In this document: one piece after another, positions 13,692 to 60,144 of the stretch
Layout of the letters: every line of letters begins with the position of its first letter
Numbering within the stretch: the stretch's first letter is position 1
Assembly: GCF_900120165.1 (NCBI RefSeq)
Contig: NZ_LT635475.1
Location: 434,001-498,000 of the forward strand
Direction of reading: 5' to 3'
Length of the DNA: 64,000 nt
Origin: Ezakiella massiliensis
GTDB lineage: Bacteria > Bacillota > Clostridia > Tissierellales > Peptoniphilaceae
Position numbers and translations under genes: made by a program
Notes under the pieces: model-generated
Seen by the model: only the letters and a program-made list of their open reading frames with translations
Databases searched by the model: none
Told to the model about the DNA's origin: nothing

Positions 13692-14627
13692 TTAAAACTT
13701 TTTCATAACTATTACAAATGCACTTGCAAGCATTATAAATCCAAAGATAAACATGATCAATGTAAATAATCTTTCTCTTTTTTCTGGCTTTATAACTAGA
13801 GTGGTCTTTTCCCTATAATCTGGGAAAGATTTTAACAACTTGTAAACCATATAAGCCAAAAGTGCAATTACAATCACTCCAAATGCAGCAACAAGGACTT
13901 TTGAATCGCCTAGCACGGCCTCAACATTTGCCATATCAGGATCGCCGGCAGCATCCAAATCCAAGTTGCCAGCCTTGTTGGCAATGTAGCCTATGACCAT
14001 GGCTATGGAGTTGTTGGTTGTGTGACCAATGATGCTAGGGAGTAATGAGTCAGACCTGTATCTCAAATATCCAAATGTCAGTCCCATCAAAAATGGTCCG
14101 ACAATATTTATAGGATTGTAGTGGAAGATTGCAAAGAGGGTTGCAGTTATAAAAATCCTCGCCAGAGGCTTGTACCTATCAAAGGCCTTAAATAGAAATC
14201 CTCTAAAGACCAACTCTTCAAAAACTCCTGGCAAGACCGCAAACATAATAACACTTACCAAAAACATTGGGAAAGTTTCTGGTAGGGGTACACCCAAATC
14301 AGATGGTAGCGTCATAAACTTAGATAGGCCTGTCAAATACAAACCATTTATAAATACAATAACTGGATAAGATAAAAGCGATATAAAAAACGCCTTCCAT
14401 AAAGTCCCCTCGTAGGGCATCCTAAGGGCCAAGGTCTCTTTTACATAATATTTTCTAAATACACAGACCAGATATGTCACTAGGCCTAATATTATTGCCT
14501 CTGTAAAAAATATTCCAAAATAAATATTTAAAAGCTGAGTAAGTCCACCCAGGGTTAAAAACAAAACCGTTAACCCCATAAACATGAGTGATCCAGCAAC
14601 AGCTGTTGGCATACTTTTTTTATTCAT
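13692..14627 (-). CDS. CPBP-family intramembrane metalloprotease
   Basis: A 311-residue membrane protein of the CPBP/Abi (CAAX-processing-like) family with about eight hydrophobic segments. The signature motifs are PGVFEELVFRGFLFKAF (Glu-Glu...Arg), IFITATLFAIFHYNP (FxxxH) and a later IIGHTTNNSIAMV (HxxxN). Such enzymes cleave or process membrane-embedded peptides; in Gram-positives some are linked to bacteriocin immunity, but nothing here shows a bacteriocin. ATG at 14627 overlaps the hpt stop by 8 bases; a longer frame upstream is inside hpt. Confidence 0.88.
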   Translation of the reverse strand: MNKKSMPTAVAGSLMFMGLTVLFLTLGGLTQLLNIYFGIFFTEAIILGLVTYLVCVFRKYYVKETLALRMPYEGTLWKAFFISLLSYPVIVFINGLYLTGLSKFMTLPSDLGVPLPETFPMFLVSVIMFAVLPGVFEELVFRGFLFKAFDRYKPLARIFITATLFAIFHYNPINIVGPFLMGLTFGYLRYRSDSLLPSIIGHTTNNSIAMVIGYIANKAGNLDLDAAGDPDMANVEAVLGDSKVLVAAFGVIVIALLAYMVYKLLKSFPDYREKTTLVIKPEKRERLFTLIMFIFGFIMLASAFVIVMKKF

Positions 14628-15150
14628 CTTCTCCCTCTTCCAAAAATTCAAATATATAAGGCACATTTCTGTAATTGTTTTCATAGTCCAAGCCATAACC
14701 TACAATAAAAACATCGTCCACTTCAAAGCCTACAAAATCACTGTTTACATCTTGTGTCCTTCTGGATGGCTTATCAAGCATTGTGGCAATCTTTAATGAC
14801 TTTGGATTTCTAATTCCTATATAGTCCTTGATAAATTTTAAGGTATTGCCTGAATCAATAATATCATCGACTATTAAAACATTTTTGCCTTCTACATTGG
14901 ATCTCAAATCGCTAAATACTTTTACATCACCAGATGAAACCTTCTTGTGCCCATAGGAAGCAGTTGTAATAAAATCTACTTCAACAAGCATGTCCAGCCT
15001 CTTAATCAGGTCGGCTGCAAACATAAAGCCACCCCTTAAAAGAGGTATTACCATGATGGGTTCACCATGGTAATATTCATTTATTTCCTCTGCCAGCTTG
15101 TCCAAACGCTCATTAATTTCATCTTGTGTAATCAAAACTTTTTTAATCAT
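14620..15150 (-). CDS. hpt: Hypoxanthine phosphoribosyltransferase
   Basis: A 176-residue purine salvage enzyme converting hypoxanthine or guanine plus PRPP to IMP or GMP. PRPP motif VLIVDDIIDSGNTL, IPLLRGGFMFAADL near the N-terminus, and VDDVFIVGYGLDYENNYRN with the base-binding loop match the family. It overlaps valS by 4 bases (ATGA). Confidence 0.96.
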   Translation of the reverse strand: MIKKVLITQDEINERLDKLAEEINEYYHGEPIMVIPLLRGGFMFAADLIKRLDMLVEVDFITTASYGHKKVSSGDVKVFSDLRSNVEGKNVLIVDDIIDSGNTLKFIKDYIGIRNPKSLKIATMLDKPSRRTQDVNSDFVGFEVDDVFIVGYGLDYENNYRNVPYIFEFLEEGEDE

Positions 15151-17786
15151 AAAGCCCTCTTAATTTCTTCAAGAGAATCCTTAGCTGATTGGAGCAAGGA
15201 CTCATAGTCGTTTAGCTTTTCTTTTTCTTTATTTACAACTGCCTCTGGAGCCTTGTCTACAAAGCCCTTGTTAGCAAGTTTTTTATTTAATCTTTCGATT
15301 TCTGATTCGTAATTTTCGATTTTCTTTTCCAAACTAATAATTTCTTTTTCGTAATCGATTAGCTCTTTTAGAGGCATATACATATCGAATTCAGGTATTG
15401 ACATAAAGAGATAGTCGCTTGGATTTAGCTTTTCTGTAGTAGAAATAATCTCTGTTACGCCGATTAATGGCATAATCATTTCTTTATTTGCAATAACATC
15501 TGCAATCAAAGCATTGTCGCCAGCCAAAATCAATTCGGATTTCCTGCTTGGATCGATATTTCTGGATGCCTTTGCATTTCTAACTTCTCTTATAATGTCC
15601 TTGATCTTTTCAATTACAAAAACGCTGCTCTTTGGATTTTTGATTTCCAAAACCTCTGGCCATGCTTGAACCATAATATAGCCCTTTGAGTTTGGTAGAG
15701 ATTGGTAAATTTCCTCTGTGATAAAAGGCATAAATGGGTGAAGAAGCTTTAAACTATTTTCCAATACATAAAGAAGCACTGACTTAGTAACAGCCTTTCT
15801 ATCTTCGTCATCACCATATAAATCGCTCTTTGAAAATTCGATATAGTAGTCGCAGAGGTCTTCCCAGATAAATGAGTAAATGCGTTCAGCTGCAAGACCA
15901 ACTTCATATTTGGAAAGGTTCTTGTCGACAGTTGAAATTGCGTCATTTAATTTTTCCAGAATCCAAATGTCCTTATCGGTGAGTTTATCTTGGTCAAAAT
16001 CAGTTGACTTGTGGTCGCCAATGTTCATAAGTAGGAAGCGGCTTGCATTCCAAACCTTGTTGGCAAAGTTTCTTGCATTTTCAACCTTTTTCTCATCAAA
16101 TCTCATATCGTTTCCAGGTGAATTACCCGTAACCATATTAAATCTCAAGGCGTCGGCCCCGTACTTTTCAATAATTTCAAGCGGGTCAATACCATTGTCA
16201 AGAGACTTACTCATCTTCCTGCCTTGAATGTCACGGACGAGTCCGGTAATCAAAACATCTTTAAATGGAATTTGATTCAAGAAATACTTAGATGTAAAGG
16301 TCATCCTAATAACCCAGAATAAAATTATATCAAAGCCAGTGATCATTAGATCAGTTGGGAAGAATTTTTTAAAGTCTTCTGAATTTTCATCCGGCCAACC
16401 CAATGTTGCAAATGGCCACAAGGCTGATGAGAACCAGGTATCCAAAGTGTCTGGATCTTGGTGTATATTCGTTGATCCACATTTTTCACACTTTTCTACT
16501 GGACTTTCGCTAACGTGAATGTGGCCACAGTCTTCGCAGTAATATGCTGGAATTTGATGGCCCCACCAAAGCTGACGTGAAATACACCAGTCGTTTAAAT
16601 TTGACAGCCAGTTTCTGTAAATCTTTCCATATCTTTCAGGATAGAATTTTGGTTCGCCAGCGTCAAAAGCTTCAAGAGTATCTTTAGCCAAGTCTTTCAT
16701 CTTAACAAACCATTGCTTGCTGATCAGGGGCTCAATAACAGTTTTACACCTGCTGCAATGGCCAACTGCATTTTCGTGTTTCTTTTCGCTGACCAAAAGC
16801 CCTTGAGCTTTTAAGTCTGCAATAATATTTTTCCTTGCCTCATACCTATCCATACCTGCGTATTTCAAAGCATTTTCATTCATCTTGGCATCTTCATCAA
16901 TAACTACAAATTGGCCAAGATTGTGGCGTTCACCAACCATAAAGTCGTTAGGGTCGTGAGAAGGTGTAATCTTTACAACACCTGTACCAAATTCCATATC
17001 AACATAATCATCAGCAATTATAGGAATTTCTTTTTCAACAAGTGGAAGTATGACATTTTTGCCAACCACATCCTTGTATCTATCATCGTTTGGATTAACA
17101 GCAACAGCCAAGTCGCCAAGCAAAGTTTCAGGACGAGTTGTAGCAATGACTACACTCCCATCTCCATCAGCAAAATTATATCTGATTTCCCAAATTTTAC
17201 TATCAGTATCAACGTGGTCAACCTCAGCATCAGAAATAGCAGTCTTACAATCTGGGCACCAGTTAATAATCCTGTCACCCTTATAAATAAGACCATCATC
17301 ATACATGCGTTTAAAAGCTGTAAAAACAGCGTGACTCATATTGTCATCCAGAGTAAATTTTAGCCTATCCCAATCGCAAGAAAAACCCATAGACTTGAGC
17401 TGATTAATAATATTGCCACCGTGCTCATGGGTCCAGTCCCAGGCCTCTTCCAAAAATCCATCGCGGCCAAGTTCTTCCTTGGACTTGCCTTCGCGTCTAA
17501 TCTTATTTACAACACGAGACTCAGTTGCAATACTTGCGTGGTCTGTGCCTGGCAGCCAAAGAGCTGCATAACCTTGCATCCTCTTTAGCCTGATATAAAT
17601 ATCCTGTAAAGTATACATAGAATGCCCCAAATGCAAATTACCAGTAACATTTGGCGGTGGCATCATAATAGTGTATGGCTTACCATCTTTATTAACAGAG
17701 GGAGAAAATAAATTATTGTCTACCCACTCATTATAAATTCTTTTTTCAAAATCATGCGGATTATATTTACTATCTAATTCTTTCAT
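15147..17786 (-). CDS. valS: Valyl-tRNA synthetase
   Basis: An 879-residue class I synthetase charging tRNA-Val, with editing of Thr. MPPPNVTGNLHLGHSMY holds the HIGH-type motif, RKMSKSLDNGIDP the KMSKS loop, ATTRPETLLGDLAVAV the editing domain, followed by paired CxxC zinc-type motifs (CPDC, CSRC, CEDC, CEKC), DLCDYYIEFSK in the anticodon domain and a C-terminal coiled coil (EKKIENYESEIERLNKKL). The ATG at 17786 (MKELDSKYNPHDFE) matches family starts; the frame extends 37 codons further into the promoter. The leader is too short for a T-box. Confidence 0.97.
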   Translation of the reverse strand: MKELDSKYNPHDFEKRIYNEWVDNNLFSPSVNKDGKPYTIMMPPPNVTGNLHLGHSMYTLQDIYIRLKRMQGYAALWLPGTDHASIATESRVVNKIRREGKSKEELGRDGFLEEAWDWTHEHGGNIINQLKSMGFSCDWDRLKFTLDDNMSHAVFTAFKRMYDDGLIYKGDRIINWCPDCKTAISDAEVDHVDTDSKIWEIRYNFADGDGSVVIATTRPETLLGDLAVAVNPNDDRYKDVVGKNVILPLVEKEIPIIADDYVDMEFGTGVVKITPSHDPNDFMVGERHNLGQFVVIDEDAKMNENALKYAGMDRYEARKNIIADLKAQGLLVSEKKHENAVGHCSRCKTVIEPLISKQWFVKMKDLAKDTLEAFDAGEPKFYPERYGKIYRNWLSNLNDWCISRQLWWGHQIPAYYCEDCGHIHVSESPVEKCEKCGSTNIHQDPDTLDTWFSSALWPFATLGWPDENSEDFKKFFPTDLMITGFDIILFWVIRMTFTSKYFLNQIPFKDVLITGLVRDIQGRKMSKSLDNGIDPLEIIEKYGADALRFNMVTGNSPGNDMRFDEKKVENARNFANKVWNASRFLLMNIGDHKSTDFDQDKLTDKDIWILEKLNDAISTVDKNLSKYEVGLAAERIYSFIWEDLCDYYIEFSKSDLYGDDEDRKAVTKSVLLYVLENSLKLLHPFMPFITEEIYQSLPNSKGYIMVQAWPEVLEIKNPKSSVFVIEKIKDIIREVRNAKASRNIDPSRKSELILAGDNALIADVIANKEMIMPLIGVTEIISTTEKLNPSDYLFMSIPEFDMYMPLKELIDYEKEIISLEKKIENYESEIERLNKKLANKGFVDKAPEAVVNKEKEKLNDYESLLQSAKDSLEEIKRAL

Positions 17787-17832
17787 ACAACACTTCCCCA
17801 TTAAATATTGGCATAAGCCTGATTTATATATA

Positions 17833-17861
17833 ATTATACACAAAGAGCCCCTAAATGTAAA
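17833..17861 (-). promoter_or_regulatory. valS operon promoter
   Basis: Minus-strand -35 TTTACA (17856-17861) and consensus -10 TATAAT (17833-17838) with a 17-base spacer, 47 bases before the valS ATG. Confidence 0.8.
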
Positions 17862-17920
17862 GCAAAGAGTGGCCAGCAAAGCCATCATAAAATACACTTG
17901 TTTACTTAATAAAAATAACT

Positions 17921-17995
17921 TGTAATGAAACTGTAATCATAAAAGCCCACTAATTAACCATTCTGTAACTTGTATTGGCAAAGGCATGCTATAAT
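17921..17995 (+). promoter_or_regulatory. Orphan plus-strand promoter with Pho-box-like repeats
   Basis: TGTAAT occurs at 17921 and 17932, TTAACC at 17954 and TGTAAC at 17964, close to an 11-base phase as in PhoP-bound direct repeats, with one repeat missing. A consensus -10 TATAAT lies at 17990-17995. No gene follows on this strand, only a terminator 28 bases downstream. The repeats are visible; PhoP binding is inferred. Together with the hairpins below, this is all that is seen in 17787-18182 besides the valS promoter. Confidence 0.45.
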
Positions 17996-18022
17996 AAAAC
18001 CATCCTATTGTTTTGTTTTTGA

Positions 18023-18051
18023 AAAATCCGCAGATGTTAGCGGATTTTTTT
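18023..18051 (+). terminator. Intrinsic terminator just after the orphan promoter
   Basis: AAAATCCGC and GCGGATTTT form a 9-bp stem with an 8-base loop, followed by T residues on the plus strand. It would end a transcript of roughly 50 bases from the promoter at 17990. Confidence 0.75.
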
Positions 18052-18064
18052 ATGCCCAAAATTA

Positions 18065-18108
18065 AAAGAGCCCTAGTATATATGTTATAGTATATACTAG
18101 GGCTCTTT
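18065..18108. terminator. Long perfect hairpin downstream of the McrBC-like block
   Basis: AAAGAGCCCTAGTATATA and its exact complement form an 18-bp stem around an 8-base loop. On the minus strand it is followed by TTTTAATTTT, so it may back up the terminator at 18142. Confidence 0.65.
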
Positions 18109-18141
18109 ATTATATATTAATTATTATCTTTTCCCACAAAA

Positions 18142-18171
18142 AAACTTAGCATTTATCTTAATGCTAAGTTT
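18142..18171 (-). terminator. Terminator of the McrBC-like operon
   Basis: AAACTTAGCAT and ATGCTAAGTTT pair around a short loop, followed by seven T on the minus strand, just after the nuclease gene stop. Confidence 0.85.
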
Positions 18172-18182
18172 AATCTGTTTTT

Positions 18183-19859
18183 TTATTTTACTTCCTCTGC
18201 TAATCTTTCAATCAACCTAAAGAAGGCCATGTTTCTTGAATTATCAGGACTATATTTAAATATTCCGAAGTCACTATAAAAGTCTTCTATCAATCCATCA
18301 TCTAGATTTTCATAAAACCATATATCGTTTTTGTTTTCATCAAAGCGTCCCTGGAGGACATAAACCATCTGATCTCGCTTGCCATCAGTTTTTCTGATTT
18401 GATTGTAGTATTTTGAGATCACTTGGTCCATGTGCCCACGCAGGATTGTATTTCTGGATTGGTATTTGGCGTCAAGTATTAAATACTTGGTGGTTTTGCC
18501 TTGGAATTTTAAAATAAAATCTGGCGAATAATAATTCCCTGTTTTGTTAAAGTTGGTAAAATTATCATCGCCGCCACTGGTCCTCAAGAGTCCAATTTCA
18601 TTTAAACTTTGATTTCTATATATCAATGGTTGGAAATACAAAGAGAGTTTAACTCCCTCCCTTTCCCTGTAAAAGGTATTAAATAATATATTTTCATTTT
18701 GAAAGACATTGTTGATTGTTGGATAATAGAACTGCTTATCCTTGGTCTCGACTTTTACGTAGCCCATATCTTTTAGACAATTTAATAATCTTGCCAGGCA
18801 ATAATATTCATAGAGTTTATCAAGGGAATCGATATTGAAATAAAATTCGTGGTATCTGAGATTTACCTTGCGTGCATGGACCCACCTGTTCATGTAAGCC
18901 CAGAAAACTGGGTTTATATAGTCGCTCATATTGGAAGTGAGTTTAAATTTGCCCTTTGACTTAAAGCGATTCCTAAGCAAGATGTTTTGCATAATCTCAA
19001 TATTTTTAACTAGCCTTCTAAGCTCCATATAAACTCGGTCTATCCTTAGCTTATAAGTGATAACTATGGGCGCACTGTAGCCCTCTGGCAGTGATTTCTT
19101 GATAGAAGTGTATTTTTTCTCCATATCTTTTGTAATGGTCAGAATTTTCTTGTAGAGTTTTTTGCTGGCGACCGTAAGTTCATTTAAAAACTCCATTATT
19201 TCCAAGCGTTCTTTTTCAACTTTTGGACCGCGAGTTAAATTTGATCCCAAAAAGTCGCTGGTTAAAATCCTCCGCCTGGCCGATATTATTTGCTCATTTG
19301 CAGAAAAATCCCTTTCATACATGGCCTTGTGCTTATTATAGGTTTTTATAATATTTGAAACGAGGTTGTTGTAAAGACCAAGTGTTATTGTGTCCTCCTC
19401 GTAACTCGTATCAATCTGCCGGCTGAGGCCGTGTTCACCGGAAATGTAATAGATCATATCGTCTACATTTTTCTGGTCGTCATTGGTCTTAGTGGTTACC
19501 AGGACCTTGTCACTTGAATAAAAATCATCAGTGTCATCATCATAGATCAAACGGACTCTAAGCCTAACGCTATCAATCATCATCAAAAATGGATATGACC
19601 TGTCTTTTTCATTTGATCCCTTGTAGACGACCTTGAAATCGTATCTGTCATTGGATTTTTCTATTAATTCTAGGCTGCCAATTTCCTCTTCGTCAATATA
19701 AAATTCGCCCGATACAATTTCTTTTGCCGAATAAATTACAAAGTTGATTGAATAGTAGCCGTTTTCAAAGACTACACCATTGGTGTATCTATCCCTGCCA
19801 AAGCCGTTATTTAAATTGATGGAGTTTTCAGTGTTTGTGTTATAGCATTTAAGCTGCAA
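18183..19859 (-). CDS. McrC-like DUF2357/PD-(D/E)XK nuclease-like protein
   Basis: A 558-residue protein with a beta-rich N-terminal part (about 1-160), a helical middle (about 165-300) and a C-terminal PD-(D/E)XK-like core. The core shows an upstream Glu in KLYEYYCLARLL (Glu351), SPDFIL (Asp447), then LILDAKYQ with Asp463, Lys465 and Gln467, the classical nuclease order. This is the layout of DUF2357 proteins that partner McrB-like ATPases in type IV restriction relatives. It is the last gene of a four-gene block, 23 bases after the ATPase. Start is uncertain: TTG at 19859 is the first conventional codon, but the GGGGGTGG site lies 16 bases upstream of it, farther than usual. Role in defence is inferred from the family; target unknown. 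Confidence 0.78.
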   Translation of the reverse strand: MQLKCYNTNTENSINLNNGFGRDRYTNGVVFENGYYSINFVIYSAKEIVSGEFYIDEEEIGSLELIEKSNDRYDFKVVYKGSNEKDRSYPFLMMIDSVRLRVRLIYDDDTDDFYSSDKVLVTTKTNDDQKNVDDMIYYISGEHGLSRQIDTSYEEDTITLGLYNNLVSNIIKTYNKHKAMYERDFSANEQIISARRRILTSDFLGSNLTRGPKVEKERLEIMEFLNELTVASKKLYKKILTITKDMEKKYTSIKKSLPEGYSAPIVITYKLRIDRVYMELRRLVKNIEIMQNILLRNRFKSKGKFKLTSNMSDYINPVFWAYMNRWVHARKVNLRYHEFYFNIDSLDKLYEYYCLARLLNCLKDMGYVKVETKDKQFYYPTINNVFQNENILFNTFYREREGVKLSLYFQPLIYRNQSLNEIGLLRTSGGDDNFTNFNKTGNYYSPDFILKFQGKTTKYLILDAKYQSRNTILRGHMDQVISKYYNQIRKTDGKRDQMVYVLQGRFDENKNDIWFYENLDDGLIEDFYSDFGIFKYSPDNSRNMAFFRLIERLAEEVK

Positions 19860-19882
19860 ATAACTGTTGATACTACCACCCC

Positions 19883-22357
19883 CTAGAAGCTTACAGATAT
19901 ATCTTCAATAAAGTTATCATACATATCCTTGTAGGCTACAAGGCATTCTTCTAGTCTTGGCATTTCTTTTACCTCTTGCAAGAGTCCATCAATAAGTCTC
20001 TTATTGATGCTGGTAGAAATTCTGGATGGGAGCATAAATTGTAATACTGCCATTTCAAGTGCCAGGTATTTGAATTCATTTATATTTGTTTTGAGTAGGG
20101 GTGTGATTGAAGAAATAAACTGCCTAGTCCTCATTATAGTTCTGGGGCTAAGGGGTGAGCCATATCTCCTCAATACATTAGAAATATTAGCTAGCTTGTT
20201 TTCAACATCTGGACTAATGTTATCATGCTTGGCTTGTAAGCCTAGTATATCTGAAAGTTTAACAACACCCCTTGGACTCATATCATCCATGTCTTTTTGA
20301 TAGAAGTTTTTGCTCTCATACTTTGCTTCGACTGTTGCCGTCTTGTCATAAAAACGAGAAGTTAGTTCCAAGCTGGTGTGGTCTTTTTGCAAGGTTGTAA
20401 AAAACCGCATATTATCTTTTAATTGAATTTCCTTGCCACCACCAAGATTTAAATAATCTTTAGATCCTATCTCGTGCTCTAAAAAGCTGGCCATATAGTG
20501 TTCTGGCATTGATAAGTTTGCGTTATCAAAGAGCACAATATGTGGCAGGTTTCCATCGCAAGTCTTGTCCATCATATCTAATAATCTCTTGTTGTTAGCG
20601 GTGAGCTCTCCAGAAACAGGATTGTAAAAACCAATTAGGTCTCTGGAGCTCCTGATATCTGGATCAATATTTACTTTTATAAATAAACCGTTTTCTTCGC
20701 TTAAACCCAAAGCTCTGGCAAAGGTGCTAACCATTGAGGTCTTGCCTGATCCAGTCTTGCCATTGATATTGGTTATATAGGACATGCCAAAGAGGACCAA
20801 GAGGTTGGCGACCATATTTCTCGAAATATTATAGTTATATTCAAAATTCATCATGTAGTAAACATAATTTACCAGGTCTTCTTTTGAATTAAAGCTGGCC
20901 AATTCAAATTCTTTCTTCTCAGTGGAATCAAAGTTTTTGAGGCCTTTTAAAGTGGACATAAAATCATCCATGCCATCTTTTCTCAAATCCTTAGCAATTA
21001 CTCGACCAATATTTTTGTACTCGTCTACAGAATCTTTTAGCTCCGTCAAAACTTCGCCTTGAATGGTCTTTAGCTTTTCAAGCTCTGCCTTGTTTTCTTG
21101 AATTGTTTCTTCCAAGCTTATTTTTTCAGAGGCGAGGTCATTTACATAACCCATGAGCCTGAGTTCTTCGTGCCTTTCTTCCAATTCTCTTTCTTTAGCT
21201 GCAATTTGTTCATTAAGTTCTTTGGCCAATTCTTCGTTCTCTTTGATCAAAAATTCTCTGGAATCTTTAGCATCTATACTTAGCTTATTTACCTCATCTT
21301 GTAAGGCGTCTTTTTCTCTTTCTAGCTCAGAGATTTTTTCTCTAACTTCAATAAAAATAGTTAATCTGTCTTCAATTTCTTCAAAATTATTGTCCAAAAT
21401 TAGCCTGATTACATAGTCCTTTAGCTTGTCATCCTTGAGCAAGAAGGTGGCTATTTTAAACAAGAAATCAGTCCCCATTTCAGATTGCTTAATAATATTG
21501 CGGAAACGCTCAACCCTGTCCTGGCTAGCATTTGGATAAGTAACATTGTTTATAGATGTTAATAGGGCTTTCTTAAGTGCATTTACATCAGCGCTGTTGA
21601 TATTTTCTTCGCGTTCAAAAATACTTAAGACAGTTTCTATTAGCATCTCATCTGAGATAAAATCTTGGACTTTGAGTTTGTCCTTATTTTCATCCAAAAA
21701 GTTTTTACAAGTTAAAAATACGCCGTTTTCAGCCCTGTCTCCAACCTTGAAAACAAACTTGTTTAAAATAAATTCCTCATCTATAAATAAATTGTAATCG
21801 TATTCACCAACAGCAGCCAGTTCAACCGTATTATCATTTACAAAATAAGTAAAAGGACCACAAATTCCGTCCCTAGCCTTTATAAAAATTTGATCTGTAT
21901 AAATTTTTTCTAAAACATAATCAAGTTTTCTATTTTCTATAATTGTTTCTAAAGAATCTTCGCTATTAATAACCTGTATAAAATTATCGTTTTTAAATCT
22001 TTCTAGCCAAACTTCACTTGAATCATCCCCATAAGATGGATTAAATTTCATCCTATAAAAATTGTTTTGTTGATTGGTGTCAACTTCTGGTTCAAAATTA
22101 ATCCTAATTGAAACCAAATGTGTTAGTTTGTCAACAATTTCTTCGGCTGAAAATCCTCCTTGTATGCGGACTTCAAAACTTCCAAGTTGGGGAAAATCCT
22201 CTGGATTAACTGGTAAGACTTCCCCATCACTTAAAATAAAACGCGGATAAACATAGCAAACCCTATTAATGCTATTTGAATATTCTCCGTGGGAATAATT
22301 TTCGTTGTAATAAATCCAACCTAAAAGTTCCTTTCCAACATAATCACAAATGCTCAT
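19883..22357 (-). CDS. McrB-like AAA+ ATPase with long coiled coil
   Basis: 824 residues from the ATG at 22357, which follows AGGTGA (a GTG three codons upstream is less well placed). Residues 1-330 match no family I recognise. About 335-445 is a strong heptad coiled coil (repeated KxxLExE-type helices). From about 510 comes a McrB/MoxR-type AAA+ domain: Walker A GKTGSGKT (533-540), Walker B-like IVLFDNANLS (607-616), a sensor/finger segment FTTLQKDHTSLELTSRF with Arg668, and SPRT (737-740) near the sensor-2 position. The Walker B acidic pair DE is replaced by Asp611-Asn612. It lies between membrane protein genes and the McrC-like nuclease, so it likely forms an NTP-driven complex with that nuclease. 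Confidence 0.8.
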   Translation of the reverse strand: MSICDYVGKELLGWIYYNENYSHGEYSNSINRVCYVYPRFILSDGEVLPVNPEDFPQLGSFEVRIQGGFSAEEIVDKLTHLVSIRINFEPEVDTNQQNNFYRMKFNPSYGDDSSEVWLERFKNDNFIQVINSEDSLETIIENRKLDYVLEKIYTDQIFIKARDGICGPFTYFVNDNTVELAAVGEYDYNLFIDEEFILNKFVFKVGDRAENGVFLTCKNFLDENKDKLKVQDFISDEMLIETVLSIFEREENINSADVNALKKALLTSINNVTYPNASQDRVERFRNIIKQSEMGTDFLFKIATFLLKDDKLKDYVIRLILDNNFEEIEDRLTIFIEVREKISELEREKDALQDEVNKLSIDAKDSREFLIKENEELAKELNEQIAAKERELEERHEELRLMGYVNDLASEKISLEETIQENKAELEKLKTIQGEVLTELKDSVDEYKNIGRVIAKDLRKDGMDDFMSTLKGLKNFDSTEKKEFELASFNSKEDLVNYVYYMMNFEYNYNISRNMVANLLVLFGMSYITNINGKTGSGKTSMVSTFARALGLSEENGLFIKVNIDPDIRSSRDLIGFYNPVSGELTANNKRLLDMMDKTCDGNLPHIVLFDNANLSMPEHYMASFLEHEIGSKDYLNLGGGKEIQLKDNMRFFTTLQKDHTSLELTSRFYDKTATVEAKYESKNFYQKDMDDMSPRGVVKLSDILGLQAKHDNISPDVENKLANISNVLRRYGSPLSPRTIMRTRQFISSITPLLKTNINEFKYLALEMAVLQFMLPSRISTSINKRLIDGLLQEVKEMPRLEECLVAYKDMYDNFIEDISVSF

Positions 22358-22366
22358 AAAAATCAC

Positions 22367-23143
22367 CTATCCTAAAATTTTGTTTCTTAAAATAAATATA
22401 ATAATTGTAAAAATTGGCAAAAATAAAAGCCAATAGCTGTTCGTTCTCTTTCTGTCAAAGTCTTCGTCATAAAAATATACAAATAAATTTGCAAGAACCG
22501 AAGATCCCTGAGGGAACATGCTAATGGCACCAAAAATAGCCTGACTTGACCTTACTGGATCAAAATAGGCTAGAGAAATAATATAAATAGAAAGTGAAAT
22601 TGCATAATTCACTCCTAAAAATATTGAAATAAAGAGAAGGCTAAATGTTATTAGCAGCCTATAGGCCCAAGCCTTACCATTCCTTTTTACCATCGTCCAA
22701 GCGTAAAAAAACGGAATCGATAAGAGGACCATAAATACTTCAGAAAATTCTCCCAAGTAAAATTGCTTAAAATTAAAATAAAAATAAAAACCTTCAGCAA
22801 AAAGAATAACAAAAATAACTGGCCACAGATTAAGCTTGCCATTGTAGATGCATAAAAATATGCAAAATATTGCCATAGGTATGCAAATTCTGCCAATAAA
22901 TTCACATATTAGTGAAAATTTTTGACTACCTATAAACTTGATGAAACCCGAGTAAGTAAAACCAGGTTCAGCTAACATTCTCTCTTCTGCAAGGCTCCTG
23001 TAAATTGTGGCATCATGTACAAAATATCTAGAAAAAATATAGATAATACTCAGGGCAAAAAATGTCCAAAAAATATTTTGGTAAGTGAAAAATTTCTTAG
23101 GAGCTTCCTTAGGCTTATAAATATTATAATTCATACTACTCAT
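22367..23143 (-). CDS. Membrane protein of the McrBC-like block (about 7 TM)
   Basis: 258 residues, with about seven strongly hydrophobic segments after a short basic N-terminus. Segment FIGRICIPMAIFCIF and the later aromatic FAEGFYFYFNF loosely recall TraX-like membrane acyltransferases (GRIAFP...EGF), but the match is weak and I make no functional claim. The stop codon lies 9 bases before the ATPase start and the gene overlaps its upstream neighbour by 8 bases, so the four genes are tightly linked. It would place the complex at, or make it respond to, the membrane; that is inference. Confidence 0.7.
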   Translation of the reverse strand: MSSMNYNIYKPKEAPKKFFTYQNIFWTFFALSIIYIFSRYFVHDATIYRSLAEERMLAEPGFTYSGFIKFIGSQKFSLICEFIGRICIPMAIFCIFLCIYNGKLNLWPVIFVILFAEGFYFYFNFKQFYLGEFSEVFMVLLSIPFFYAWTMVKRNGKAWAYRLLITFSLLFISIFLGVNYAISLSIYIISLAYFDPVRSSQAIFGAISMFPQGSSVLANLFVYFYDEDFDRKRTNSYWLLFLPIFTIIIFILRNKILG

Positions 23144-23699
23144 CCTTACTGTGATCTTTGATAATACCCCTTAGAACTTTATGTCTGTTATAAAGTTCAG
23201 AATTTACAACATCTTTTTTGTGGTTTTTAATCATCTCATTGTCTATTGATTTCTCAAGGTATTTGGCCCCGCCAATAAAGGCTAACATTAATAAATGAGT
23301 GTATGAAGTTTTAATAGAAGGTTCAGATAAGGCTCCGGTAAGCTCAACAAAAAAGTTTACATTTAAAATATTATTATAACCGATAACCATTACAGCTATT
23401 GATCCTACATATAAAGCGGATGCGAGTATAATCTTGAATATATTTCCCCCAACTCGAGGGCTAACTAATAATTTAAATACACTAACAAAGGCATAGGCGC
23501 CTAAAAAAAATAAATAAACAATCAAAAAGTTAAATAAACGTCCATACATTTTAATCCTACGAACCGCTTCTGCATTAAGTTCATTAGAAGATAATTGTCT
23601 AACATTATCTACTCTAACGACCTCCATATAAATAGCAACTATACAAAAAATAATAAATAATGCAATCCATAGGACTTTAAAAAATTTCTTAAATTTCAT
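23136..23699 (-). CDS. Small membrane protein of the McrBC-like block (about 4 TM)
   Basis: 187 residues, not recognised. Hydrophobic segments are at about 7-25, 53-77 and 88-108, with a weaker fourth near 132-148; the C-terminal 40 residues are basic and polar and probably cytoplasmic. ATG follows TTGGAGATATT. It is the first gene of the four-gene block. Only about 85 bases separate it from oppDF, and no clear promoter is seen there, so read-through from the opp operon past the weak terminator is possible. Confidence 0.7.
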   Translation of the reverse strand: MKFKKFFKVLWIALFIIFCIVAIYMEVVRVDNVRQLSSNELNAEAVRRIKMYGRLFNFLIVYLFFLGAYAFVSVFKLLVSPRVGGNIFKIILASALYVGSIAVMVIGYNNILNVNFFVELTGALSEPSIKTSYTHLLMLAFIGGAKYLEKSIDNEMIKNHKKDVVNSELYNRHKVLRGIIKDHSKDE

Positions 23700-23743
23700 A
23701 ATATCTCCAATATAACAAGTTAAGCTTGTATTTTTTAAAAATT

Positions 23744-23771
23744 AAGGGGAGAGGCTAAGCCCACTCCCCTT
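23744..23771. terminator. Terminator after oppDF
   Basis: AAGGGGAG and CTCCCCTT form an 8-bp stem. The T run is best on the plus strand; on the minus strand the tail is AATTTTTAA, which is weaker and may allow read-through into the membrane/McrBC-like genes. Confidence 0.6.
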
Positions 23772-23784
23772 TTTTATATAAATT

Positions 23785-25785
23785 TTATTTTAAATTCTTT
23801 CTCATTTCAGCAATTTCAGCTTCATTTGCTAGAACAAAGTGTCCTGGCTTAATTTCAGTCCATGATGGCTTATCAACTTCATAGTTGTGCATTGATGGAT
23901 CATAAACTAAGTGGTGTCTGCCCTTTTCAATTCTAGGATCTGGAATTGGGATAGCTGATAGTAGAGCTTGTGTATATGGGTGAAGTGGGTTTCTATAAAG
24001 TTCTTCACTTTCTGCAAGTTCAACTAACTTACCATAGTACATAACACCAATTCTGTCTGAGAAGTACTTAACAACTGACAAGTCGTGGGCAATAAATAGG
24101 ATTGTAAGTCCTAGTTTACGCTTAATTGAGTTCAATAGGTTAAGAACTTGAGCTTGAATTGAAACGTCAAGTGCAGAAACTGGTTCGTCAGCAATAACGA
24201 AGTCAGGATTTGTAATCAGAGCTCTTGCAACACCAATTCTTTGTCTTTGTCCACCTGAGAATTCGTGTGGATATCTGTTGGCGTGTTCTGATGTCAAGCC
24301 AACAGTTTCAAGCATTTGATATACAAGTTCGTTCATTTCGTGTTCTGAAGAAGTTAAGTTGTTAATTCTTAAACCTTCACCAATAATTTCCTTAACAGTC
24401 ATTCTTGGGTTGATAGAAGCAATTGGGTCTTGGAAGATCATTGACATTGATTGGTTAACTTCACGTTTTTCTTTTTTGTTTAGTTTACCAGATATATCCT
24501 TGCCCTTATAGATAATTTCCCCTTCAGTTGGTTCATAAAGTCTGATAATAGTTCTACCTGTTGTAGTCTTACCACAGCCAGATTCACCAACTAGACCAAA
24601 GCTTTCGCCTTTATATATATCAAAGCTAACATCATCTATAGCCTTAACAATCATCTTGTTCTTACCACGACCTGATTTGAAGTATTGTTTCAAGTTTCTA
24701 ACACTTAAAATAGGTTCTTCTTCTGAAGTTGCAACGTGTTTACTTACGCTTTCATAAGCATCACTTCTAACCTTGTTTCTAAATGTTTCAAAGTCAATTT
24801 GTGGAGCTTCAGGGTGTAGTAACCATGTTGATGCCCAGTGATCATCATTAACAGTAAACATTGGTGGTTGTTGTTCAAGGTCAATCTTCATAGCGAATTG
24901 GTTTCTAGGTGCAAAAGCATCTCCTACTGGAGGATAAAGCATATTTGGTGGTGCACCTGGAATTGTATAAAGTTCATGATTTGAGTCTGTTTCTAGGTCA
25001 GGCATAGCTGATAATAGAGCCATTGTATATGGATGTCTTGGTTTTTCAAAGATATCATATACAGTACCGTATTCTACAACCTTACCTGCATACATAACAG
25101 CAACTTTGTCTGCTAGGTTAGCAACAACACCAAGGTCGTGAGTAATAAAGATTACACCGATATTTCTTTCTTTTTGTATATCTTGAATTAATTCAAGAAT
25201 CTTAGCTTGAACTGTAACGTCCAGAGCTGTTGTAGGTTCGTCACAAATTAGAAGTTCAGGGTCACAAGCAAGAGCTGTTGCGATAACAATTCTTTGTCTC
25301 ATACCACCTGAGAATTGGAATGGGAATTGTGTATATCTAACTTCTGGGTTTGAAATACCAACTGCATCCAATAATTTAACAGCTTTTTGTTTTGCTTCTT
25401 CTTTAGATGTGCCGTGTTTAATTCTAGCTGCTTCGGTAATTTGTTTACCTATTCTCATAACAGGGTCAAGAGATGAGAGTGGGTCTTGGAAGATCATAGC
25501 GATTTCGTCACCACGGATTTCACTCATTTCTTTTTCTGTGATCTTTAGTAGGTCTTTACCCTTATATAAGATTTCCCCGCTTTCAACATTAGCGTTTTTA
25601 GCAAGTATTCTCATTATAGCTCTAGCAGTAACACTCTTACCACTTCCACTTTCACCAACGATTGCAAGAGTTTCTCCATTGTCAACATCAAAGTTAACTC
25701 CTCTTACAGCGTGAACTTTTCCTGAATAGGTATTAAATGTTACATATAGATTTTTTACTTCAAGTAATTTTGTTTTATCTGTCAT
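23785..25785 (-). CDS. oppDF: Fused OppD-OppF oligopeptide transporter ATPase
   Basis: 666 residues holding two complete ABC ATPases in one chain. The OppD half has Walker A GESGSGKS (44-51), signature FSGGMRQRIVIATA and Walker B LLICDEPTTALD; the OppF half has GESGCGKT (400-407), FSGGQRQRIGVARA and FVIADEPVSALD. The two are joined by OppD's C-terminal extension. That extension lacks all four cysteines that usually bind a 4Fe-4S cluster (Asp289, Asn295, Asp302 and Thr320 stand in their places). It powers peptide uptake with oppB/oppC, whose genes lie directly upstream. Last gene of the opp operon. Confidence 0.93.
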   Translation of the reverse strand: MTDKTKLLEVKNLYVTFNTYSGKVHAVRGVNFDVDNGETLAIVGESGSGKSVTARAIMRILAKNANVESGEILYKGKDLLKITEKEMSEIRGDEIAMIFQDPLSSLDPVMRIGKQITEAARIKHGTSKEEAKQKAVKLLDAVGISNPEVRYTQFPFQFSGGMRQRIVIATALACDPELLICDEPTTALDVTVQAKILELIQDIQKERNIGVIFITHDLGVVANLADKVAVMYAGKVVEYGTVYDIFEKPRHPYTMALLSAMPDLETDSNHELYTIPGAPPNMLYPPVGDAFAPRNQFAMKIDLEQQPPMFTVNDDHWASTWLLHPEAPQIDFETFRNKVRSDAYESVSKHVATSEEEPILSVRNLKQYFKSGRGKNKMIVKAIDDVSFDIYKGESFGLVGESGCGKTTTGRTIIRLYEPTEGEIIYKGKDISGKLNKKEKREVNQSMSMIFQDPIASINPRMTVKEIIGEGLRINNLTSSEHEMNELVYQMLETVGLTSEHANRYPHEFSGGQRQRIGVARALITNPDFVIADEPVSALDVSIQAQVLNLLNSIKRKLGLTILFIAHDLSVVKYFSDRIGVMYYGKLVELAESEELYRNPLHPYTQALLSAIPIPDPRIEKGRHHLVYDPSMHNYEVDKPSWTEIKPGHFVLANEAEIAEMRKNLK

Positions 25786-25794
25786 TTCATCCTC

Positions 25795-26958
25795 CTATTC
25801 AATACCACGTAATGTTGGGTCAAATGCGTCTCTTAATCCGTTACCCATCAAGTTAAATGCAATCATCATAACTGAAATAACAAGTGAAGGGAAAACAGTT
25901 AAGTGTGGGTGTTCAAGTAGAACCTTTTGACCATCTGCTAACAATACACCAATTGAAGATTCTGGAGCTTGGATACCTAGACCAATATAAGCTAGGAATG
26001 ATTCACTGAAGATAGCTCCTGGAATTTCTAGTGCAGCCATTGTAATAATAATACCAATAGCGTTTGGTAGAATGTGTCTAAAAATAAGGGTTCTATCGCT
26101 TGCACCAAGAGTTCTGGATGCAAGTACGTATTCCATTTCCTTGTACTTTAAGAATTGTGCACGAATCATACGGCTCATGCCAATCCAACCTGTCATACAC
26201 ATAGCAAGAGCTAGTGGAACAATACCAGGTCCATAGTAGAATACAAAGAGAATAACAATAACTAGATAAGGTACACCACCGAGTATTTCAATAATACGTT
26301 GCATTAAAAGGTCTACCCATCCGCCATAGTAACCGGAGACAGCACCGTATACAATACCTACAAAAATATTTACAGCCATGGCGATAAGAGAGATTAAGAA
26401 TGAAACTCTAAGACCTCTCCATAGCCTTGTCCATAGGTCACGTCCTAGATAGTCAGAGCCGAACCAGTGATAAACTGAAGTTGGCTTTGGTTCTAGATCT
26501 GGATTTTCAACTTCTACTTGTTTGTATTGGTTATACTTAATTGTAGCCATTGGAACACCCATTATTTCACGAGTGCTAATGGTTTTTAGATATGAATCAT
26601 TATACTTTTCTTCGATTGAAGTTTCTCTAACTTCTTTCTTTTTAACACCTGAGAAGAAATCAGACTTTGCCCAAGAAATTCTTGGAGTCATATTGGTCAT
26701 CTTAACATTTTGTTCGTCGTATGTGAACTTGCCAATTGATGGACCAATGATAGCCATAATAGCTAAGATTGCAATAATAACAAAACTTACTAGAGCTGCC
26801 TTGTTCTTTCTAAATCGAATCATAGCGTCCTTGAAGAAACCAATAGCTTCACCCTTTATAGCTTCGTCATGAATTTTTTCATCAAAGTGAACATATTCAA
26901 ATTTTTCTTTTGGAATATCTAAACTTGGATCAAGATTTACATTTTTGATATCAGCCAT
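25795..26958 (-). CDS. oppC: Oligopeptide ABC permease OppC
   Basis: 387 residues. An N-terminal cytoplasmic tail and one membrane segment (ALVSFVIIAILAIMAII) are followed by an extracytoplasmic stretch and the five-segment BPD_transp_1 permease core. YHWFGSDYLGRDLWTRLWRGLRVS is the typical OppC/DppC lead-in, and the EAA loop is seen as SRTLGASDRTLIFRHILPN. The extracytoplasmic stretch (about residues 75-165) is longer than in many homologues. It abuts oppB and precedes oppDF by 9 bases. Confidence 0.93.
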   Translation of the reverse strand: MADIKNVNLDPSLDIPKEKFEYVHFDEKIHDEAIKGEAIGFFKDAMIRFRKNKAALVSFVIIAILAIMAIIGPSIGKFTYDEQNVKMTNMTPRISWAKSDFFSGVKKKEVRETSIEEKYNDSYLKTISTREIMGVPMATIKYNQYKQVEVENPDLEPKPTSVYHWFGSDYLGRDLWTRLWRGLRVSFLISLIAMAVNIFVGIVYGAVSGYYGGWVDLLMQRIIEILGGVPYLVIVILFVFYYGPGIVPLALAMCMTGWIGMSRMIRAQFLKYKEMEYVLASRTLGASDRTLIFRHILPNAIGIIITMAALEIPGAIFSESFLAYIGLGIQAPESSIGVLLADGQKVLLEHPHLTVFPSLVISVMMIAFNLMGNGLRDAFDPTLRGIE

Positions 26959-27905
26959 TAATCTCTACCTCCTAGTCTAATTCTTGGGTCAATAATACCA
27001 TAGCTTAAGTCAACGATTAAAATTGTAATTAAGCTTAGTAATGAGAACCAGAACAATACTCCGATTGCAAGTGGAAAGTCGTGAGCGTTAATAGCGTCAA
27101 CCATAACATTACCCATACCTGGAATTGAGAAGATCTTTTCAATAACAAGTGATCCACCCATTATTTGGATAAACATTGGGATAATAATATTTGCAAGTGG
27201 AATAAATGAGTTCCTTAAAGCGTGTCTTGTTGTAGCTTGTACTTGGCTCAAACCTTTTGATTTTGCAAGTAACATGTACTCTGAGTTTAGAGCTTCAGTA
27301 AGCTCGGCTCTTGTATAACGTGCAACACCAGCGATTGAACCAAATGATAGTGCCAATATTGGTAAAATCATTGAGTGGAACTTAGTCCAGGTCAAATGCT
27401 TTTCAGGTGTTGTAATTATAGGGAACCATCCAAGTTTAAATGCTAAGAAATATTGCATAAGTGTAGCGAATATAAAACTTGGGACTGAAATAAATAAAAT
27501 TATGAAAAATGAAATAACTTGGTCAGCAAGTTTGTTTTTTCGTATAGCTGCCCATATACCCAATATCATAGCTATAGGCATTGTAAAAATAAGTGAAAAA
27601 ATATTAAGTTGCATTGAAACCGGAATCTTGGTTGCAAGAACTTCATTTACGGGAACTTTTGGATTAATAACTAGTGAAATTCCAAAGTCACCTCTAACAA
27701 AATCTTTTAAAAAATATCCATATTGTACCATCAAAGGTTCATTCAAGTGATATTTATCTTCCATGGCTCTCTTAACTTCTGCCGGTAATTTATTATCTTG
27801 AATAAAGCTTCCTGGCATAGAGTGCATAACGAAAAAACTTAGTGATATGATGAAAAACAAGGTTATCGCCATAAGTACTAGTCTTCTTGCGGTATATCTG
27901 ATCAC
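26958..27905 (-). CDS. oppB: Oligopeptide ABC permease OppB
   Basis: 315 residues, six membrane segments, with the OppB N-terminal segment YTARRLVLMAITLFFIISLSFF and the EAA loop ARYTRAELTEALNSEY...AKSKGLSQVQATTRHALRN. It forms the channel with OppC. It overlaps oppC by a single base (ATG/TAA style) and lies 84 bases after oppA, across an intercistronic stem-loop. Confidence 0.94.
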   Translation of the reverse strand: MIRYTARRLVLMAITLFFIISLSFFVMHSMPGSFIQDNKLPAEVKRAMEDKYHLNEPLMVQYGYFLKDFVRGDFGISLVINPKVPVNEVLATKIPVSMQLNIFSLIFTMPIAMILGIWAAIRKNKLADQVISFFIILFISVPSFIFATLMQYFLAFKLGWFPIITTPEKHLTWTKFHSMILPILALSFGSIAGVARYTRAELTEALNSEYMLLAKSKGLSQVQATTRHALRNSFIPLANIIIPMFIQIMGGSLVIEKIFSIPGMGNVMVDAINAHDFPLAIGVLFWFSLLSLITILIVDLSYGIIDPRIRLGGRD

Positions 27906-27934
27906 GCTCTTCTCTCCTTTCTCTTATATATTTG

Positions 27935-27961
27935 AAGAAAGGGGAATAGCTCCCCTTTCTT
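27935..27961 (-). other. Intercistronic stem-loop between oppA and oppB
   Basis: AAGAAAGGGG and CCCCTTTCTT form a perfect 10-bp stem without a T run on the transcribed strand. It is placed to protect the oppA 3' end or reduce read-through, which would keep binding protein in excess of permease; that role is inferred. Confidence 0.65.
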
Positions 27962-27989
27962 AATCAAATATAATATTTTTAACTATATA

Positions 27990-29999: not shown

Positions 30000-30060
30000 A
30001 AAATCCTCCTTTGTTTTGTGGTTTTACCAATAATTCATATCTCTTAGATATGATGTATAT

Positions 30061-55205: not shown

Positions 55206-56393
55206 TTAGCAGTTAGCGTCTCCTGTGACATAACCTGCTTTTTCTAGTTCCTTGTGTGCAGCTTCTAGCTTTGCTTCATTGACCATAACAATTGGTCCTG
55301 TGCAACCCATTCCGCTTTCAGCGTAAATGCCTACTGCCCATAATGCTTGAACAGCATCTTCAAGTTCTAGGATATCAATACCTGCGATTGAACCATCTAC
55401 GATTTCTTTTTCAGGCATTTTTACTTCTTCTTTTGGTCCAGCTGCTTTTGTGGATTCAGCTTTCAAGCCATCTAAGATCTTATCTAAGCCAGCTTTTTCA
55501 GCCTTAGCATATTCTGATTTTTTGATTTGATCGATTCCACCGCGAGCTGTTCTAATTGCATATTCAAGTGCGTTTGCAACTACTGGATATCCACTAGCAC
55601 GGCTAACGATAAAGATATGTCTATCGTATCCTCTGCCAATACCAGGACCATATCCATAACCCATGGCTTCAAATCCGCCACCTGTTTGGAAACTTGAGAA
55701 CATCTTCATCAAGATATTTCCTGTAAGTGTATCTGTAACCATAACATCAGGTACGCCTTGTAAGAGGTCATTACCTCTCATTACACAGCCACCATCTGCA
55801 CGGTTTGATTCTGCAAAATGAAGTGTGTAGCCATTAGATGAAAGTTCTTTTAAAGCTCTTTCAACTTGTCTAGCACCGTCAACATTTAGAATACCAATTG
55901 TTGGTTCATCCTTGCCCATTGCCTTTGCAGTAATAACACCAGCAATAGCATTTAAAACCATAGCTTCAACCCTGTGTGGTGAAGAAGTTCCTGTAGTTGT
56001 AGCAATAGTCATTTCTTCTCCAAAAGCTGGAGTGATAACTCTACCTACAGTACTTACACCGATTGGGAAATTGTAGTGCATGGTAACAAAAGCTGAAACT
56101 TCTCCGCTATCAAGCAGTTCTTCCATCTTTTTGTAACCTTCATCTTCACTTGCAACATTGTATTGAACAAGATCAGTTTCTGCCTTATCACCAACAGTGA
56201 TAATTACAACTTCTGATGATGGGTCAGCTGCTTGAGCTTTTTCTGCTCCCTTAACTAGGTTTTCGACTCCATGTTCACTGCCAAATGCTGTTAAACCGAC
56301 TCTAACTTTTTTCCCAAAGCTACCTGATTCGATTCCATCAGCAATGTCCATAAAGACGTCACCAATCATCTTTTTAATATTTTGTTCTGACAT
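55206..56393 (-). CDS. grdD: Glycine reductase complex component C, subunit alpha
   Basis: 395 residues. With GrdC it turns the carboxymethyl-selenoether from GrdA into acetyl phosphate via an acetyl-thioester. The PlsX-like fold shows GVSTVGRVITPAFGEE, TGTSSPHRVEAM and TGGGFEAMGYGYGPGIGRG. Cys364 in the late GMGCTGPIV motif is the expected acyl-carrying Cys. ATG at 56393 follows GGGGTGA and lies 10 bases after the grdC stop; the longer frame overlaps grdC. Confidence 0.95.
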   Translation of the reverse strand: MSEQNIKKMIGDVFMDIADGIESGSFGKKVRVGLTAFGSEHGVENLVKGAEKAQAADPSSEVVIITVGDKAETDLVQYNVASEDEGYKKMEELLDSGEVSAFVTMHYNFPIGVSTVGRVITPAFGEEMTIATTTGTSSPHRVEAMVLNAIAGVITAKAMGKDEPTIGILNVDGARQVERALKELSSNGYTLHFAESNRADGGCVMRGNDLLQGVPDVMVTDTLTGNILMKMFSSFQTGGGFEAMGYGYGPGIGRGYDRHIFIVSRASGYPVVANALEYAIRTARGGIDQIKKSEYAKAEKAGLDKILDGLKAESTKAAGPKEEVKMPEKEIVDGSIAGIDILELEDAVQALWAVGIYAESGMGCTGPIVMVNEAKLEAAHKELEKAGYVTGDANC

Positions 56394-56403
56394 CAAATCA
56401 CCC

Positions 56404-57975: not shown

Positions 57976-58024
57976 TATATACACCTCCATAAATTTGCTA
58001 TTTTTATAAATAGCCTTGCCATAC

Positions 58025-58046
58025 ACATATACCCAAAATTATATGT
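58025..58046. other. Inverted repeat in the grdCD leader
   Basis: ACATATA and TATATGT flank an 8-base spacer, between the -10 and grdC. It could be an operator or a leader hairpin. Confidence 0.4.
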
Positions 58047-58060
58047 ATATATCCATCTCA

Positions 58061-58089
58061 ATTATACAATATTAGGCCAATAATAACAA
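58061..58089 (-). promoter_or_regulatory. grdCD promoter
   Basis: Minus-strand -35 TTGTTA (58084-58089) and -10 TATAAT (58061-58066) with a 17-base spacer. About 85 bases of leader precede grdC. The stretch 58090-58237 shows nothing else. Confidence 0.75.
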
Positions 58090-58237
58090 TACCCTTTTAA
58101 TTTTTTTCGTTTTACCCTATAGAGTTTACTAATGATTATTTTTAAAAAGTTATCATTGGCTATTTTAAAACAAGTTCACATAAATTTACATAATCACCAA
58201 AAATTATTAAATTTATGCTCCAACAATTAAAAAATAA

Positions 58238-58263
58238 AACCGGGAACAAAACTGTCCCCGGTT
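58238..58263 (-). terminator. Terminator after grdB
   Basis: AACCGGG and CCCGGTT form a 7-bp stem around a 12-base loop, followed by TTATTTTTT on the minus strand. Confidence 0.88.
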
Positions 58264-58272
58264 GTTAGTGTA

Positions 58273-59583: not shown

Positions 59584-59616
59584 TGTGTTCCCCCTTTCTT
59601 CTATTCGGATGTGAAT

Positions 59617-60090: not shown

Positions 60091-60144
60091 TCTTGGTTCC
60101 TCCCTTAAAATTTTAATTTTTGTTATTGTTTGTGAAAAATATTA

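Follow-up and report, generated by a model that had tools for sequence, protein, structure and literature searches.

Organization of the four-gene block

The sequence analysed here, referred to as the window, is a stretch of 64,000 nucleotides from Ezakiella massiliensis (contig NZ_LT635475.1, positions 434,001 to 498,000), whose genome is a single contig of 1.74 Mb. Between positions 18183 and 23699 it carries a block in which a McrB-like ATPase and a McrC-like nuclease are preceded by two transmembrane (TM) proteins, TM1 and TM2. A preliminary description, made from the letters alone, had suggested a membrane-anchored McrBC-like defence complex or a sensor; the listing of open reading frames (ORFs) of the window recovers the same four genes on the minus strand and at the same positions. 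Read along that strand, the block begins with TM1 (23136..23699), a small orphan membrane protein of 187 amino acids (aa) with three to four TM segments, recognised by its ORF, hydropathy, homologues and ratio of nonsynonymous to synonymous substitution rates (dN/dS). It is followed by TM2 (22367..23143, 258 aa), a membrane protein that appears to be derived from TraX according to its ORF, hhalign comparison and profile search, and which may start at 23134, judging from the shared N-terminal MNYN. The ORF of the AAA+ ATPase/GTPase spans 19883..22366 (827 aa), and the ATG at 22357 is a more likely start than 22366 (19883..22357, 824 aa). The ORF of the nuclease, with its C-terminal PD-(D/E)XK domain, spans 18183..19859 (558 aa); from an ATC codon upstream, which we favour below, it becomes 18183..19871 (562 aa). 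With that start the gap between ATPase and nuclease genes would be 11 bp, so the ORFs of the preliminary description stand and its spacing (an 8-base overlap or gaps of 9-23 bases) would need revision at this junction.

The two hairpins proposed to close the block were confirmed by the terminator scan. An intrinsic-terminator-like hairpin lies at 18142..18171 on the minus strand and a second one, flagged on both strands, at 18065..18108; theirs are the longest stems among the terminator-like sites (8 found against 3.2 expected). A promoter scan returned 35 sites where 25 were expected and was left unused, and Rfam gave no match within positions 14000-30000 of the window. Between the window and Ezakiella peruensis the block genes are under purifying selection, with dN/dS of 0.050 for TM1, 0.187 for TM2, 0.102 for the ATPase and 0.045 for the nuclease, similar to the 0.049-0.099 of the neighbouring opp genes. 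Homologues across the genus and low dN/dS mark the block genes as more than chance ORFs, and we are highly confident of the anatomy as described.

Motifs of the ATPase

The ATPase is laid out as an N-terminal beta-rich region (residues ~1-235), a coiled coil (~325-470), a McrB-like AAA+ domain (~490-690) and C-terminal helices. The coiled coil had been put at 110 residues; it is indeed present, but in the structure model it forms a single helix of about 145 residues, at a predicted local distance difference test score of ~50-80. As the predicted template modelling score of the whole model is 0.46, its domains alone were used and not their arrangement. Hydropathy gives no or one TM segment in the Ezakiella ATPases.

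The Walker A motif (GKTGSGKT) is intact and the Walker B Asp is kept. The Walker B stretch reads LFDNAN in the window and aligns to DEINRA of Escherichia coli McrB, with the catalytic Glu replaced by Asn (codon AAC, 20522..20524 on the minus strand, residue 612 of the 824-aa protein). This Glu is replaced, as DN or DG, in all 21 rows of the Ezakiella clade, whereas DE is found in 77/77 relatives. Similarly, the NxD signature, present in every one of the 77 relatives, is kept in 2 of the 21 clade rows and reads QKD in the window. These counts are of alignment rows rather than species, with identical rows removed, and the 21 clade rows comprise six genomes together with metagenome proteins (one named Ezakiella, one Tissierellia) grouped by 42-97 % identity. 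An additional 27 loci from a class-wide search (L093-L119), which lie outside the 77 relatives and were checked with a loose pattern, have Walker B Asp-Glu in 16 cases and gave no usable match in 11. A study of E. coli McrB reports that a protein mutated at this Glu still forms hexamers and that its hydrolysis is abolished (PMC6344862). We consider it probable that the Ezakiella ATPase has lost nucleotide hydrolysis.

Database searches place the protein only broadly. Sequence searches against the PDB, with single proteins and with profiles, returned generic AAA+ or coiled-coil matches or none, and Foldseek with the ATPase model ranked BrxL, NorQ and MCM highest at low coverage; kinship with McrB therefore rests on the comparison with McrB and on the motifs. 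The PADLOC model PDC-M26A matches the ATPase (E 5e-19, residues 320-629) over a stretch confined to the coiled coil and the beginning of the AAA+ domain, and it also matches 6/6 relatives scanned.

The nuclease and its start codon

The predicted PD-(D/E)XK site is intact, and residues P446, D447, D463 and K465 (numbered from the TTG at 19859) are invariant in 34 rows. The earlier assignment to DUF2357/PD-(D/E)XK thus holds for the nuclease site; DUF2357 is undetectable by Pfam scan in the window protein itself but is recognised in the relative at L020, which passes the Pfam cut-offs of DUF2357 (25.3 versus 23.3 bits) and PDDEXK_7. The best Pfam match of the window nuclease, PF04411, scores 18 bits (E 0.0033) where the cut-off is 22.1. 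A DUF2357 family search of the window's own genome was silent everywhere, controls included, and so is uninformative. E. coli McrC aligns weakly across the DAK region (hhalign 25.8 %), and PADLOC has no match for the nuclease, TM1 or TM2.

The nuclease is more likely to start at a non-canonical ATC (19869..19871, minus strand), which aligns to the Met of P0002 and P0003, than at the TTG at 19859. The conserved N-terminus begins with ATC in the window and in E. peruensis, with ATT in L009, L010 and L012, and with ATG in L011 only. In all five ATC/ATT cases (5/6 Ezakiella genomes) a GGGGG or GGAGG precedes the start codon by exactly 7 nt; in the window, reading of the sequence places this putative Shine-Dalgarno (SD) element as a G-run at 19879..19883 on the minus strand, overlapping the ATPase stop. 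Ahead of the conserved N-terminal stretch, the open frame in L009, L010 and L012 holds no ATG, GTG or TTG. In 60 relatives with the nuclease directly after the ATPase the gene caller, which permits only canonical starts, assigned such a start, and in 55 of them it lies no more than 35 bp from the ATPase stop. As an alternative to the ATT/ATC start, ATPase and nuclease might be joined through a frameshift. This was rejected because the frame of one gene relative to the other is not the same in every genome: the two are out of frame in the window, and in L012 they share a frame across the stop. The ATT/ATC codon and the 7-nt spacing nevertheless persist.

In Staphylococcus aureus, conserved AUU/AUA starts after a strong SD gave about one tenth of the AUG output in poor medium, and for one gene the output from the non-canonical start was higher in rich medium (PMC13009471). 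The natural reading of the ATT/ATC start is dose control of the nuclease, whose supply is probably low. Such a start, repeated on a dangerous enzyme, offers an easily tested case of start-codon dose control, and any annotation limited to ATG, GTG and TTG will truncate the nuclease. Between the window and E. peruensis, synonymous divergence (dS) is 0.53 in the nuclease (18183-19859 against L008 11589-13265) and 0.07 in the adjacent ATPase, an excess that suggests exchange of alleles by recombination in the nuclease gene.

The two membrane proteins

The upstream genes had been described as coding for proteins with four and seven TM segments. Both are membrane proteins, but hydropathy gives three clear segments in TM1 and six in TM2; the structure model of TM2 has nine helices of at least 11 residues. 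TM2 of the window has no Pfam match, and its best orthologue scores 24.4 bits against TraX (PF05857) at a cut-off of 25, the one of six members that comes near it. With hhalign, TM2 aligns to TraX at 95.9 % (P 5e-9) over 155 columns that include a GR-I-x-x-P motif. Corresponding values are 0.9 % for OppB, 0.06 % for nucleoside permeases and 0.4 % for TM1 versus TraX, all of these membrane-protein comparisons being made with shallow alignments. Over a family sample of 130 genomes, 6 of them Ezakiella, the TM2 profile has matches in 51 genomes, 45 of them non-Ezakiella, and such matches, for instance in G041, G058 and G037, overlap TraX genes. TraX proper is above its cut-off in 82 of the 130 and is found nowhere in the window's own genome. 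On these alignments TM2 descends from the TraX acyltransferases.

In the merged alignment, the C-terminal His of Y-P-V-H is invariant in 8 TraX rows and absent in 10/10 TM2 rows. None of the 10 TM2 rows has the Asp-His found in the first TraX helix, a region where the alignment is unsupported by hhalign, and the Asp of the S-x-D-Y stretch is retained in some rows (L010, L012). We infer that TM2 may have lost acyltransferase activity. No clear solved relative was found with its structure model. That a fold of membrane acyltransferases has been enlisted as a partner would be of interest in its own right.

TM1 is an orphan. Homologues occur in five of the six Ezakiella genomes; neither the 124 non-Ezakiella family genomes nor a further sample of 198 genomes of the phylum yielded any. 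A second copy was found independently in G049. A further probable copy, of 158 aa, was spotted by position and length in G048; it was entered into the TM1 alignment, and its later profile match is thus circular.

Distribution and descent within Ezakiella

Among the 130 family genomes the ATPase is found in the six Ezakiella, together with one negligible match; the weak short matches in G114, from this search, and in G053, from a class-wide one, were excluded from the counts. The ORFs of ATPase, nuclease and TM2 are open in all six, and the E. peruensis nuclease (L015) shares 96 % identity with that of the window. The upstream order of peptide-binding protein, two permeases and fused OppDF, then the block, is likewise found in 6/6; the downstream flank varies between the genomes and the upstream flank is constant. 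Unrooted trees of concatenated OppB/C/DF, ATPase, nuclease and TM2 have one shared topology, and the distances correlate with r of 0.91, 0.92 and 0.95 (reached by 2, 4 and 1 of 720 permutations, respectively). Congruent trees and correlated distances mark the block as vertically inherited within the genus, in which it is old and fixed. Outside E. peruensis, identity to the window is 41-47 % for the ATPase and 22-38 % for TM2, versus 81-83 % for OppDF and 82-88 % for OppB, so that divergence is far more rapid in the block than in opp. The constant location of the block favours a resident role; its rapid change under purifying selection would be compatible with a conflict-related one.

The ATPase-nuclease pair outside Ezakiella

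Scanning genome contigs with the nuclease alignment yielded 75 loci, five of them from Ezakiella (E. peruensis L015, Ezakiella sp. L016 and L018, 'Tissierellia bacterium' L017 and E. coagulans L019) and the others mainly from Clostridia, Treponema metagenome-assembled genomes, Anaerobiospirillum and other proteobacteria. Of the 63 non-Ezakiella loci with both genes detected, 60 have the nuclease following the ATPase with no other ORF between them. After 14 of the 75 loci had been set aside, with the ATPase at a contig edge or one gene of the pair undetected, 61 loci remained in which the ATPase was complete and the gene upstream of it could be inspected. A multi-TM gene (at least two TM segments, same strand, at most 60 bp upstream) is present in five of these, all Ezakiella, and among the scanned loci the TM1 and TM2 profiles match only L015-L019. 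Three contigs classed as viral carry the pair without TM1 or TM2. The preliminary description had proposed to test whether the membrane genes always accompany the pair and had named their absence from most relatives as evidence against its reading; since the multi-TM neighbour is confined to Ezakiella, this absence is what the wider family displays. That reading is therefore supported only in part. The McrBC-like character of the pair is upheld, and the pair is assigned to a widespread coiled-coil McrBC-like family, in the NxD clade near the CoCoNuTs.

The relatives occupy several recurrent positions. In Anaerobiospirillum and kin (L033, L043, L047, L076, L077, L080) the pair follows yidC-mnmE, genes identified in L033 and recognised by length and order in the other loci; here, too, the family recurs next to housekeeping-like genes. 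In Ruminococcus and kin (L042, L052, L061, L063, L067, L072) it lies between an HtrA-like protein (trypsin and PDZ domains) and a rhomboid protease with YceG_bac, as tested by family in L052 and by length and order elsewhere, and L065 and L066 have only the right-hand part of this arrangement. In Treponema metagenome-assembled genomes (L024, L025, L027, L028, L070, L087) the pair is divergent from apparent BioY/ECF transporter genes, the families having been tested in L024 and L028 and the rest judged by length and order.

An uncontrolled scan of 120 neighbours of the relatives for defence islands gave matches to 87 PADLOC families; among the 25 of these 87 families that were listed, 24 matched one neighbour each and mad3 three. 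At least 135 neighbours were listed, two per side and up to 49,000 residues in total, with loci after L064 nearly absent, and 15 of them (from L052, L057, L061, L063 and L071) were left out of the scan.

Comparison with known systems

No publication on this four-gene set appears among the literature matches listed, the closest being those on CoCoNuTs and CoCoPALMs. The Ezakiella block resembles the NxD-clade coiled-coil McrBC systems and CoCoNuTs (PMC11090510) in that a long coiled coil is joined to its McrB-like domain; the likeness of the nuclease partner comes through the relative at L020 with its DUF2357 and PDDEXK_7 domains, and the relatives have NxD. It differs from them in the loss of the Walker B Glu and, in most rows, of the NxD Asn, and in an intact nuclease where, according to that article, many such systems have lost theirs. 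Its two separate membrane genes go unmentioned in the passages of the article that were consulted. No RNA-binding, HEPN or CARF accessory domain was found in Pfam scans of the four proteins, no dedicated search having been made, and direct scans of these proteins with Pfam, NCBIfam and PADLOC gave little beyond PDC-M26A. CoCoPALMs similarly combine a coiled-coil McrBC with a membrane link, but in PMC11090510 the link is an FtsB-like domain fused to the GTPase, with associates of the signal-peptidase family, whereas the Ezakiella membrane proteins are separate genes.

With E. coli McrBC the pair shares the AAA+ fold, Walker A, the Walker B Asp and a partner nuclease with DxK; unlike it, the Ezakiella pair has a coiled coil, another N-terminal region and lost hydrolysis residues. 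TM2 resembles TraX, assigned to the TmAT superfamily in PMC12423673, over the 155 aligned columns, without the C-terminal His. The loss of the Walker B Glu, the ATT/ATC start of the nuclease and a TraX-derived TM2 without that His appear to be new. As neither the Walker B Glu nor, in most rows, NxD is retained, it would be wrong to classify the block as an active McrBC system.

Proposed role and alternatives

Taken together, our comparisons show an Ezakiella pair fixed behind opp, accompanied by one TraX-derived and one orphan membrane protein, with the Walker B Glu lost and the predicted nuclease site intact. The reading that we prefer, tentatively and at less than even confidence, is a domesticated, membrane-tethered coiled-coil McrBC-like nuclease complex that does not hydrolyse nucleotide and is kept at low dose. 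The ATPase would bind nucleotide and form a ring, neither hydrolysing nor translocating, and TM1 and TM2 would hold or gate this ring at the cytoplasmic membrane. The nuclease, scarce through its weak start codon, would be restrained by the nucleotide-loaded ring until it was freed, by its membrane partners or by declining nucleotide, to cut nucleic acid locally. The trigger would thus lie at the membrane and not in translocation along DNA, and the most likely use would be to guard the cell against nucleic acid entering from outside or to act as a suicide switch in phage attack. The fuller version, in which a static ring tethered by TraX-derived and orphan proteins serves as safety catch on a low-dose nuclease, in a McrBC-derived machine that does without hydrolysis and is vertically inherited rather than a mobile island, we regard as somewhat doubtful. 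McrBC cleavage of DNA is described as dependent on GTP hydrolysis (PMC6344862). Selection that keeps the nuclease and the nucleotide-binding loop, and not the hydrolysis residue, would constitute a natural experiment on the roles of such rings besides translocation.

Several observations weigh against this proposal. According to published evidence GTP binding requires the signature Asn, and this reduces our confidence. The loss of the Glu and the gain of the membrane genes both occur in one lineage only and are therefore linked by a single coincidence. TM1 is absent from the 99 %-complete genome G047 and is therefore dispensable there, while a TraX family search reports TM2 in no Ezakiella genome. 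The conserved neighbours of the Ezakiella block look like housekeeping genes, with no direct link to phage defence.

An ordinary, active type IV restriction system at the membrane, driven by nucleotide-dependent translocation and cleaving foreign DNA or RNA, would account for the family relationship to McrB and for the intact nuclease site. Relatives on the three viral-classed contigs lie near genes that by inspection are recombinase-like or methyltransferase-like, and PADLOC methyltransferase models find matches among the neighbours of relatives. However, the Glu whose change abolishes hydrolysis in E. coli McrB (PMC6344862) is missing from every row of the Ezakiella clade; together with the fixed vertical position beside opp, this makes an active system unlikely. 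That same position in all six genomes, with congruent trees, is what would be expected if the complex had left defence for an envelope or uptake role, working with the upstream oligopeptide transporter in the uptake or turnover of peptides or nucleic acid. Yet a hairpin with a T-run at about 23740-23771, read by eye and unflagged by the scan, separates opp from the block, which also diverges far faster than Opp, and relatives in other genera adjoin quite different genes; we hold a housekeeping role to be rather improbable, though a little less so than active restriction. Fast divergence, the catalytic residues lost from the ATPase and the TraX-invariant His lost from TM2 could also mark a decaying relic whose motifs degenerated once the system no longer worked. 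The frames of ATPase, nuclease and TM2, open in every genome, the dN/dS of 0.045-0.19, the conserved nuclease site and Walker A and the constant SD spacing all speak against decay, which is accordingly very improbable.

Neighbouring genes and other features of the window

The conserved neighbours upstream of the block, on the minus strand at 23785..27905, are a fused OppD-OppF ATPase, OppC and OppB, with the gene of a peptide-binding protein at 27990-29999 upstream of them; these family names are putative ones, read from the sequence. OppD and OppF are apparently a single fused double ATPase of 666 aa (23785-25785), and each of the other five Ezakiella genomes has a counterpart of 664-667 aa. 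Downstream, E. peruensis (L015, 10963-16095) has the gene of an acidic, repeat-like protein of 1710 aa after the nuclease and before an ORF of 916 aa; the latter matches the length of valS of the window, and the 1710-aa gene is absent from positions 17900-18183 of the window. Farther along, at 55206-62813, lie genes resembling what we take to be a glycine/sarcosine/betaine reductase operon with thioredoxin and thioredoxin reductase, in which selenocysteine TGA codons are presumably to be expected.

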